This document shows positions 3,931 through 32,867 of a DNA stretch of 33,605 nt, piece after piece. Origin of the DNA: Nitrospirae bacterium MYbinv3. Lineage in GTDB: Bacteria; Nitrospirota; Thermodesulfovibrionia; Thermodesulfovibrionales; Magnetobacteriaceae. The stretch spans positions 1-33,605 of the forward strand of contig PEAB01000039.1 in assembly GCA_002753395.1 (NCBI GenBank), given 5' to 3'. The first letter of the stretch is position 1. Each line of letters opens with the position of its first letter. A model generated the notes under the pieces. The model made no database searches, was not told where the DNA came from, and was given only the letters and a program-made list of their open reading frames with translations. The position numbers and the translations under genes are program-made.

Positions 3931-4056
3931 AAGAAGGGGAGGCTCTGCCCACTGTCGCAGGGGTTCGCAACCCCTCCCCTCAAACCCCTACCAGTCCCCC
4001 ATTGAGCCAGGGGTCGCTGACCCCCTTGACCCCGTAAATGTCAGGCGTGGCTGCTT
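3931..4056 (-). repeat. R1 repeat, copy 3
   Basis: Inverse orientation: GAAGGGGAGGCTCTGCCCAC, GCAGGGGTTCGCAACCCC, then a degenerate CAGTCCCC...GACCCCCTTGACCCCG core, followed by the TAAATGTCAGGCGTGG tail shared with copies 6, 7 and 9. It sits between the convergent Ca2+-ATPase and barrel-protein genes and may serve as a bidirectional terminator-like structure. Confidence 0.85.
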
Positions 4057-5660: not shown

Positions 5661-5712
5661 ATTAAACTTTTGGGCGGGGGCATAAAAATTTCGTGGGGGG
5701 CAATAAATTTAA

Positions 5713-5800
5713 AGGGGTCAAGGAGACTGGTCCCCTTGCAGAGGGGTCTGAGGGGAGGGTCTCCCCTTCTATACTAATACTGGTATAAACGCAACTTGTT
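5713..5800 (+). repeat. R1 repeat, copy 4 (ACTGGTAT-ended subtype)
   Basis: GGGGTCAAGGAGACTGGTCC, then GCAGAGGGGTCTGAGGGG, TCTCCCCTTCTATACTAATA and CTGGTATAAACGCAACTTG. The same ending occurs in the copies at 27296-27451 (inverse) and 29165-29253. Confidence 0.85.
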
Positions 5801-5820
5801 ATAAGCACCTACCTAGTTTG

Positions 5821-5986
5821 GTATCCTCTTTAAAAAGCATGGTAGAATTTTTTATGGTTTCAAGACTTATGGATTCCCACTTTCGTGGGAATGACAGGAA
5901 TGGCCATTTTTCAAATATGTCATTCCTGTGTAAACAGGAATCCAGAAAGCGTAAAAGCATCGTTACCATGAATTTAAAGAAGATAC
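5821..5986 (+). mobile_element. MITE-like element M, copy A (intact)
   Basis: A 166-bp non-coding element starts GTATCCTCTTTAAA and ends in TTTAAAGAAGATAC, which are inverted repeats of each other with one mismatch. It is flanked by a perfect 8-bp direct repeat CTAGTTTG (5813-5820, 5987-5994), the expected target-site duplication. Inside are two palindromes, ATTCCCACTTTCGTGGGAAT and ATTCCTGTGTAAACAGGAAT. Copy D (32702-32867) has the same length and boundaries in the opposite orientation. Short open frames inside it are not genes. The remaining bases of 5995-6190 show no gene. Confidence 0.85.
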
Positions 5987-14168: not shown

Positions 14169-14340
14169 GGGTGCATAAGAAAGTCGTGGGTTTTTTCAGA
14201 GAAGGGGAGGCTCTGCCCACTGTCGCAGAGGTTCGCAACCCCCTCCCTAGACCCTCCCACAAGGGGACGAGTCCCCTTGACCCCGTAAATGTCAGGCATG
14301 ATTGCTTAAGTCAACAGAATTAGGGGTTAGGGGAGGGTGT
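14169..14340 (-). repeat. R1 repeat, copy 6 (long composite)
   Basis: It begins with the terminal block GTGCATAAGAAAGTCGTGGG, then GGAGGCTCTGCCCACTGTC, GCAACCCCCTCCCTAGACCC, the core ACAAGGGGACGAGTCCCCTT and the tail GTAAATGTCAGGCATGATTG, ending with AGTCAACAGAATTAGGGGTT. The tail is shared in inverse with copies 7 and 8. Confidence 0.85.
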
Positions 14341-17680: not shown

Positions 17681-17689
17681 AGGGGTAAT

Positions 17690-17835
17690 GCTGTTGACTT
17701 AAGCAATCATGCCTGACATTTACGGGGTCAAGGGGACTGGTCCCCTTGTGGGAGGGTCTAGGGAGGGCAAAGCCCTCCTTATTCATTTTCACAGCCTTAA
17801 GTCAACAGCATTAGGGGTTAGGGGAGGGTGTTAAG
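17690..17835 (+). repeat. R1 repeat, copy 7 (long composite)
   Basis: It begins TTGACTTAAGCAATCATGCC, TGACATTTACGGGGTCAAGG and the ACTGGTCCCCTTGTGGGAGG core, continues with GGCAAAGCCCTCC and ends AGTCAACAGCATTAGGGG. The two ends (CTTAAGCAATC and AAGTCAACAGCATTA) repeat the tails of copy 6. Confidence 0.85.
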
Positions 17836-21113: not shown

Positions 21114-21323
21114 GTGCATAAGAAAATCATGGAAACAAAAGTATATAATGGGGTCAAGGGGACTGGTCCCCTTGTGGGAGGGTCTAGGGAGGGCAAAGCC
21201 CTCCTTATTTATCTTCACAGATTAAGTCAACAGCATTAGGTCTGAGGGGAGGGGTTGCGAACCCCCTGCGGCAACAGGCAGAGCCTCCCCTTCTTTGACA
21301 AAACCCACGACTTTCTTATGCAC
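21114..21323 (+). repeat. R1 repeat, copy 8 (bounded by terminal inverted repeats)
   Basis: This is the longest copy. It starts GTGCATAAGAAAATCATGG and ends CCCACGACTTTCTTATGCAC, the inverse with two mismatches. Between them are the GGGGTCAAGGGGACTGGTCC core, GGCAAAGCCCTCC, AGTCAACAGCATTAGG, GGGGTTGCGAACCCCCTGC and GGCAGAGCCTCCCC. No target duplication was found. Bases 21324-21433 hold no gene. Confidence 0.85.
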
Positions 21324-21433
21324 CCCAACACACGTTGTATTTTTCCTTACATCCATGATACCGGAATAACATTATATTTTCCTGCGTTTAAATTTTAGTT
21401 CGCTGCTTAATTTTAACATAAGGAGAATTAATA

Positions 21434-27228: not shown

Positions 27229-27295
27229 TTTCTTCTTTATGTTTCATGGTAACTATGCTTTTACGCTTTCTGGATTCATGTTTACACAGGAATGA
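27229..27295 (-). mobile_element. MITE-like element M, copy B, left half
   Basis: It matches the left 80 bases of copy D (TCTTCTTTATG, TTTCATGGTAACTATGCTTT, CTGGATTCATGTTTACACAGG, AATGA) and is interrupted by an R1 copy. It lies within the leader or promoter region of amt. Confidence 0.7.
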
Positions 27296-27451
27296 TACCA
27301 ATTTGCGTACCAGTATTAGTATAGAAGGGGAGACCCTGTCCCCCTCAGCCCCCTCTGCAGGCGCTACGCTCATTGATCAGTTCGCTCCCTACGGTCGCTA
27401 GGCAGTCCCCTTGACCCCATTAAAGTTCAACTTTTTTGGATGCAACTTAGT
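27296..27451 (-). repeat. R1 repeat, copy 11, inserted in the MITE
   Basis: Inverse of the 5713 subtype: TACCAATTTGCGTACCAGTA, GAAGGGGAGACCCTGTCCCC, CTGCAG, then a foreign 44-bp segment (GCGCTACGCTCATTGATCAG, CGCTCCCTACGGTCGCTAGG) and AGTCCCCTTGACCCCATT. It is flanked by ATGA on both sides (27292-27295, 27452-27455) and splits MITE copy B. Confidence 0.75.
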
Positions 27452-27560
27452 ATGACGTATTTGGAAAACAGCCATTACTGTTATTCCCACGTAAATGGGA
27501 ATCCACTCCGTAATCCCGTCAAGACGCATAGATTCCTGCTTTCGCAGGAATGACATTTTC
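27452..27560 (-). mobile_element. MITE-like element M, copy B, right half (degenerate)
   Basis: It continues copy B with GTATTTGGAAAACAGCCATT and the palindrome ATTCCCACGTAAATGGGAAT, then diverges. A second palindrome, ATTCCTGCTTTCGCAGGAAT, follows at about 27531-27550. The GAGGATAC terminus is not found. Bases 27561-27743 hold no supported gene. Confidence 0.6.
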
Positions 27561-28905: not shown

Positions 28906-29164
28906 TCATAGGGATAGATAGCGTGTATGACACGGTCATATTAAAACTTTTCGTTTTATGATTTTGTCTTGCTTTCATATAAGGTTTTACGTATGTGAAG
29001 AACTCTTTTCATAAAGTGGGGGTTTTGAAAACAAGATTTCACTTGTTTTTGTGTTTCTTTTGTGTTTATACTAGCCAATATAGCGTAGATAGTATAATTA
29101 GACTTATACTAAGTTTCATTCAAAGAGGCATATTATGTTTCAGAATGTAAGATGTTGTATTGTA
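28906..29164. other. AT-rich intergenic stretch, no gene seen
   Basis: There is no supported open frame on either strand. A TATAAT occurs at about 29093 but has no -35 partner. With the adjacent R1 copies it separates the flavin reductase and the cluster starting at 29379. Confidence 0.6.
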
Positions 29165-29253
29165 ATGGGGTCAAGGGGACTGGCCCCCTTGCAGAGGGGT
29201 CTGAGGGGAGACAGAGTCTCCCCTTCTATACCAATACTGGTATGAACGCAACT
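29165..29253 (+). repeat. R1 repeat, copy 13 (ACTGGTAT-ended subtype)
   Basis: GGGGTCAAGGGGACTGGCCC, GCAGAGGGGTCTGAGGGGAG, TCTCCCCTTCTATACCAATA and CTGGTATGAACGCAACTTG, close to the copy at 5713. Confidence 0.85.
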
Positions 29254-29314
29254 TGATATTAGTTGTTTAGGATGGAGGCAACAAAGAAGGTAGTATAACA
29301 ACGTAAGATGGAAT

Positions 29315-32701: not shown

Positions 32702-32867
32702 GTATCTTCTTTATCTTTCATGGTAACTATGCTTTTATGCTTTCTGGATTCCTGTTTACACAGGAATGACATATTTGGAAAACGGCTATTACTGTCATTC
32801 CCACGAAAGTGGGAATCCATAGTCTTGAAACCATAAAAATTTTTACCATGCTTTTTAACGAGGATAC
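32702..32867 (-). mobile_element. MITE-like element M, copy D (intact), between two genes of the cluster
   Basis: The 166-bp element is flanked by 8-bp direct repeats TATTGGAG (32694-32701, 32868-32875). The ends are GTATCTTCTTTA and the inverse of GTATCCTCGTTAA, as in copy A. It carries ATTCCTGTTTACACAGGAAT and ATTCCCACGAAAGTGGGAAT. The duplicated TATTGGAG contains the Shine-Dalgarno of the next gene. Confidence 0.88.

Follow-up and report, generated by a model that had tools for sequence, protein, structure and literature searches.

Correia/nemis, ERIC and RUP sequences are examples of bacterial MITEs; Correia, ERIC and RUP duplicate TA, whereas the family with R1 ends described here duplicates TNA. 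Tn3-derived miniature elements (TIMEs) have Tn3-type ends and 5-bp duplications, and RAYT proteins serve REP sequences. As summarized in parts of a review (PMC2229807), bacterial MITEs are short and non-coding, with inverted ends, a terminal TA and a target duplication, and they are mainly intergenic and mostly A+T-rich. A report on TIMEs (PMC4133298) describes, in the part cited here, that they generate mosaic non-autonomous transposons. In the IS1031 group of the IS5 family, TNA is preferred and a 3-bp direct repeat is produced, according to passages of a paper about ISLrh (PMC12016507).

The R1 element resembled the MITEs of these review passages (PMC2229807) in being short, non-coding and mainly intergenic, with inverted ends, a terminal TA and a target duplication, but differed from them in the G+C-rich core and in the several unrelated interiors found between the same ends. 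Of the features by which a MITE is recognized, short length, terminal inverted repeats, multiple copies, no transposase gene, a target-site duplication and a paralogous empty site were observed. R1 copies shared with the IS1031 group, as characterized in the ISLrh passages, the 3-bp TNA duplication, which was seen in 28 of the 30 identical flanks and in 67 of all 78 flanks of the own genome. The ISLrh end GAACCTGTCTAGTATCT given there (PMC12016507) had no resemblance to the TACCAAGTTGC of R1 in a comparison by eye, which covered this one IS1031-group end. Among the matches listed for literature on MITEs, Nitrospirae and magnetotaxis, none had the term "miniature inverted-repeat"; literature containing this term together with Nitrospirota exists, and the papers matching the string TACCAAGTTGC bore titles on other subjects.

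The nested R1 element and its host MITE

The window, which is the whole stretch of 33,605 nucleotides analysed, is contig C62 of an assembly of 3.71 Mb in 175 contigs. The nest is located upstream of amt, between this ammonium transporter gene (TIGR00836) and a bacteriohemerythrin gene. Among 80 named loci retained for comparison, from which records of the own genome may be missing, the amt product came closest to one from a Nitrospiraceae assembly (68% identity), so the host is probably an uncultured Nitrospirota bacterium. The inserted unit, an R1-type miniature element inside MITE copy B, occupied 27296..27452 on the plus strand (157 bp), as defined by ends common to other genome copies and by a gap-free alignment of the joined flanks to four uninterrupted MITE copies. 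Its inverted repeats are 11 bp long. The left one, TACCAATTTGC at 27296..27306 (plus strand), had one mismatch to TACCAAGTTGC, and the right one, TACTAAGTTGC at 27442..27452 (read on the minus strand), was placed by end alignment among the copies. They are bordered by a 3-bp duplication, TGA at 27293..27295 on the left and TGA at 27453..27455 on the right, assigned from the sequence and from flank counts over paired-end copies. The right boundary lies at 27452 because the right inverted repeat ends with the A that precedes the right TGA.

The flanks of other copies provided the main evidence for this duplication. Loci were chosen because they matched R1 or the end pattern, and the flanks played no part in the choice; ends 60-420 bp apart were paired and overlapping alternatives removed, which reduced 41 pairs to 39 in the own genome and 68 to 56 in the relatives. 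Identical 3-bp flanks were found in 30 of the 39 own pairs (10,000 shuffles of the right flanks: mean 8.7, maximum 19) and in 38 of the 56 pairs of the relatives (mean 14.7, maximum 26, again over 10,000 shuffles). TNA also made up 99 of the 112 flanks in the relatives, and the two own identical flanks other than TNA were ATA and, in the 407-bp pair L157, GTT. This L157 pair and the L159 pair, whose flanks are not identical, are probably spurious; both were retained in the counts. Identical flanks were absent from 9/39 own pairs and 18/56 pairs of the relatives, some of which resembled hybrids or spurious pairings. The first-pass annotation had allowed that a match of four bases might be chance if other copies shared no boundaries; flank identity in 30 of 39 pairs against a shuffled maximum of 19 refuted this. 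Its proposal that R1 inserts as a unit with a short target duplication was borne out, with ends recurring in other copies and flanks matching far above the shuffled level.

The copies were also consistent in size, since 12 of the own paired-end copies were 126 bp and 11 were 152 bp long, so that 23/39 belonged to these two sizes. The pattern TACYAAGTTGC had 69 matches in the genome (reversed control, 4), and TACYAAGTTGCRTTCA with up to two mismatches had 98 (reversed control pattern, 6). Used as a genome query, the 156 bases first described as the insert gave at least 48 matches, full-length and partial, with 40 of 509 candidates scored. Copy L001 folded as DNA with a z of -4.4, which is expected because the ends are inverted and carries no weight as an argument.

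MITE copy B consists of a left part at 27231..27295 (plus strand, 95% to 32705-32769) and a right part at 27453..27505 (plus strand), which extends to the limit of the match with intact copies in the joined-flank alignment. Two intact copies of 166 bp with the uninterrupted site were found in the window, copy D at 32702..32867 (plus strand) with a perfect 8-bp duplication TATTGGAG and copy A at 5821..5986 (minus strand) with a perfect 8-bp duplication CTAGTTTG. Copy D had correctly been named as showing the uninterrupted site, which reads AGGAATGACATATTTGG at 32762-32778. For the empty-site comparison, the R1 unit and one TGA were removed from the window copy, and its flanks, once joined, were aligned to the genome copies. 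The joined flanks matched four uninterrupted, paralogous copies without a gap over 103-110 bp (window 32710-32819, window 5972-5870, L012 and L154) and L017 and L008 with one gap, while several further MITE copies differed by 23-24 gap positions. The alignment to copies A and D ended at base 110 of 120, and 27506-27560 was unlike both; with its match to the intact MITE ending at about 27505, copy B is itself truncated or hybrid.

Two more R1-end insertions, L008 and L147, were found in the same host MITE family, their joined flanks spanning MITE copies mostly with one gap for L008 and at 78-81% with 2-3 gaps in the longest matches for L147. A loose scan for host-MITE ends gave 20 pairs, of which three had a perfect 8-bp duplication (A, D and L017, the last a copy of 164 bp); the other 17 had none, and many of them were chance pairings. 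Because the joined flanks match uninterrupted copies and the host MITE forms a separate class with 8-bp duplications, the MITE arrived first and R1 second. The relative age read from this site in the first-pass annotation thus agrees with the uninterrupted paralogous sites and the gap-free joined flanks. The difference between the 8-bp and the 3-bp duplications suggests that the host MITE and R1 were moved by different enzymes.

It is very probable that the inserted unit is a non-autonomous MITE that was moved in trans by a transposase and landed in an older MITE of a different class. The R1-type MITE would be a non-coding element, commonly of 126 or 152 bp (here 157 bp), with terminal inverted repeats of 11-16 bp (TACYAAGTTGCRTTCA). 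A transposase supplied in trans would make a 3-bp staggered cut at TNA, and the R1 unit would then be inserted into a copy of the older MITE, for which the 8-bp duplications may point to another enzyme. The copies have common ends and TNA duplications, uninterrupted paralogous sites are present, and two further R1-end insertions lie in the same MITE family. At this locus two MITE classes are cleanly nested, and the order of their arrival is known. As an event the insertion is of an ordinary kind; its background is more interesting, as one end signal is combined with several interiors and no visible owner.

The mobilizing enzyme and the spread of the end

A transposase with matching ends, which the first-pass annotation had proposed to look for, was not found, and no autonomous element with R1 ends was found either, in the parts searched of the own genome, the stretches of relatives and the viral contigs; we infer the mobilizing step for this reason. 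Genes matching PF01609 (DDE_Tnp_1) were present at 18 places in 4 of the six genomes searched, and none of them sat between paired R1 ends. L214 and L215, near PF01609 genes, each had one single 11-base end match with one mismatch. PF01609 had no match in G010 or in G012, the genome with the most ends, and PF13359 (DDE_Tnp_4, PIF/Harbinger-like) occurred at 4 places in 2 of 19 genomes with no R1 end (up to one mismatch) nearby. An IS5-like transposase is the first guess because the ISLrh passages (PMC12016507) give TNA as the IS1031-group target, and from this target alone an IS5/IS1031-like enzyme is a tentative assignment, somewhat short of an even chance.

The G012 sample comprised 40 stretches (406 kb) covering 75 of its 112 exact ends; 55 of the end pairs in it were short with TNA flanks, and 14 were longer. 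The longest frame of nine longer pairs was scanned against Pfam, mostly as its first 130-150 residues, and the remaining five were inspected by eye. The scan of the nine gave no transposase. The frames in the longer pairs included a response regulator, a methyltransferase, an aminotransferase, POTRA and a ParE toxin (one frame shared by two pairs); DUF996 scored below the cut-off in the same scan, and two frames had no match. L316 and L304 turned out to be separate or tandem elements. At L316 1361-1824 (G012:C7), two separate R1-end elements flanked a gene for a ParE-like toxin (PF05016) together with a small frame next to it, and L304 2961-3480 (G012:C15) was a tandem array of several R1-end element copies joined through a shortened end, with an N stretch inside. 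In G010, a genome in a single contig, the 20 stretches covered had R1-end pairs of 122-292 bp. The 1053-bp pair of L172 was rejected as an autonomous element as it encloses a response regulator, and the 2.6-kb pair of L190 encloses two genes resembling sugar-related enzymes by eye. Beyond the R1 end of the contig-end copy L122, the sequence belonged to another insertion sequence (ends CAGCGATTCTCAGTG) that had entered an R1 relic; this insertion sequence had 14 genome matches and, in L160-L171, often lay at contig edges.

The mobilizer may instead be a stand-alone transposase without flanking R1 ends, as RAYT is for REP, so that there would be no autonomous copy to find. The lack of an autonomous copy in the 406 kb of G012 (75/112 exact ends) and among the pairs in the 20 stretches of G010 agrees with this, as do ends that are common across the family while several interiors exist. 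To our knowledge, however, RAYT/REP elements make no TNA duplication; autonomous copies may also be just rare or lost at contig breaks, and for several single ends in G010 no convincing partner lay within 2.6 kb. We regard this alternative as unlikely. Returning to a MITE moved in trans, the several unrelated interiors between the same ends, together with the 293-330 bp nests that have their own duplications at three loci, suggest that the enzyme recognizes the ends alone. A broader and rather speculative version is that one 16-bp end serves the family as a common signal, on which an unflanked, possibly domesticated enzyme acts in trans, and that interiors are repeatedly replaced, partly through exchange of GC-rich cores with elements using other ends and other transposases. 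The missing transposase is a concrete target for a search.

The 16-bp end was present with up to one mismatch in 17 of the 19 genomes of the bacterial family (289 occurrences in G012) and exactly in 14 of the 176 genomes of the order, all 14 within the 19 of the family, with no exact end in the 157 other genomes of the order. The relatives had the same ends, often with TNA flanks; ends and target are now defined for a MITE family spanning one bacterial family. With ends excluded, the R1 interior was matched by BLAST in two of the sampled stretches of relatives, one each in the genus-mates G002 and G003. A 103-bp interior type was common to G001, G002, G003 and the relic L136 of the own genome, all within the own genus, while a 123-bp type was common to the genera g2 and g4 (86% over the full length). 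Further interiors in other relatives included, by eye, palindromes of the GGAATGACA kind.

Among viral contigs, 22 stretches had the 16-bp end and six a variant of it, one stretch being in both sets. Because two of these contigs, L268 and L273, carried short elements of 98-99 bp with the same paired ends and TNA flanks, the R1-type end is not wholly confined to the bacterial family. The elements at L268 14589-14686 and 7519-7617 and at L273 5967-6064 enclose a palindrome of 48-50 bp that carries the same end. L280 had one weak pair 1.7 kb apart with three mismatches at one end, and L269 had no end pair. The L268 element had 2 short matches to plasmids and 21 to phages (E 0.9), R1 had 1 short match to plasmids, the strict end was absent from the 80 Amt-bearing named loci (520 kb), and the window had no Rfam match at the gathering threshold.

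Assortment of cores and ends

The first-pass annotation had treated R1 as a single repeat family, which did not hold, as the GC-rich core was found between ends of other types too. A search of the whole window for the core GGGGTCAAGGGGACT with up to three mismatches gave 12 matches, one within a gene. R1 inverted repeats were present on both sides of just two of the 11 non-genic cores (27404 and 29167), the second belonging to another R1-end element of the 152-bp subfamily at 29107..29258 (minus strand) with a TTA duplication. The core at 5714 had one R1 end and a weak GGG-CATAA-type end, and lies in an apparent hybrid at 5676..5801 (minus strand) with an R1 inverted repeat at 5791-5801 (one mismatch) and three mismatches in 14 at the other end. 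The remaining eight had other or no recognized ends: mixed GGG-CATAA and TAATGC types at 14270 and 21150, a single recognized end at 4019 and 22883, no firmly recognized end at 1128, 24703 and 28853, and, for the core at 17724, a short element (17686-17813) with inverted ends TAATGCTGTTGACTTAAG on both sides. Ends related to TAATGCTGTTGACTTAAG were also found inside the R1-end elements L015, L137, L138 and L140. In this genome the ends assort independently of the cores, and grouping repeats by core does not necessarily yield units of transposition.

The core of the window copy is itself mixed. In the alignment, a 44-nt module at 27360..27403 (plus strand) stands where the usual R1 core of 126 bp has 8 nt, and it recurs elsewhere between other ends; in L027 and L028 it is followed by the same right-hand neighbour ATTAAAGT and then by a GGG-CATAA-type end. 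In L137, L138 and L140, R1 ends enclose a TAATGC-type element; these nests measure 293-330 bp and have a separate TNA duplication each, while L015 (336 bp) had unequal flanks. Nesting, renewed transposition of nests from R1 ends and core exchange in either direction best account for the mix of cores and ends. This mixed core, the sharing of cores by elements with different ends and the apparent hybrids would also be compatible with an R1 core that entered the MITE through repeat recombination or template switching, without transposition. Such a repeat-to-repeat event leaves the full R1 ends, the exact TGA duplication and the gap-free empty site unaccounted for, and is highly improbable as the origin of the insert. 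For the transposed unit, homologous exchange between GC-rich cores may have produced the mixed interior of the window copy, and recombination probably shaped the interior of this copy and not its boundary.

An ISKra4-family insertion sequence was considered as the owner of the R1 ends, since a fragment of an ISKra4 transposase (L124, contig C57; NF033572, E 7.6e-47, 160 bits, cut-off 205) has an exact R1 end, TACCAAGTTGCATTCA, about 0.16 kb away; this fragment was the only long one of this transposase seen in the genome. ISKra4-type ends also bound elements with the same core, but ISKra4 ends start with GGGTGCATAA and R1 ends with TACCAAGTTGC. A full-length relative (L193; NF033572, 269.5 bits, cut-off 205) was bounded by GGGTGCATAA on both sides and had just two matches to the R1 end, each with two mismatches in 11 and one inside the gene, and in L124 a GGGTGCATAA boundary separates the transposase from the R1 end. 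This transposase was also unmatched in 13 of the 19 family genomes, including G004, G006, G010 and G012, all four of which have R1 ends. With the boundaries of L193 and L124 both of the GGGTGCATAA type, descent of R1 from an ISKra4 element was rejected as very doubtful, and a literature search found no paper joining MITEs with ISKra4. Short repeats with ISKra4-type ends GGGTGCATAAGAAAGTCGTGGG occur in the window at 320-382, 14169-14182 and 21263-21325.

The least likely alternative is the original description of the insert as 156 bases with ends TACC... and ...AGT and a 4-bp duplication, since, although ATGA does stand on both sides (27292-27295 and 27452-27455) and flanks L001 in the same way, the right-hand A completes the inverted repeat TACTAAGTTGC and the left base at -4 is A in just 5 of the 30 own copies with identical 3-bp flanks. 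A unit with defined ends was thus correctly recognized, while its span is 157 bp and the duplication is the 3-bp TGA (usually TNA in the family), the fourth base being the element's own last base. The other bases at this left -4 position were G in 13, C in 8 and T in 4 of these copies.
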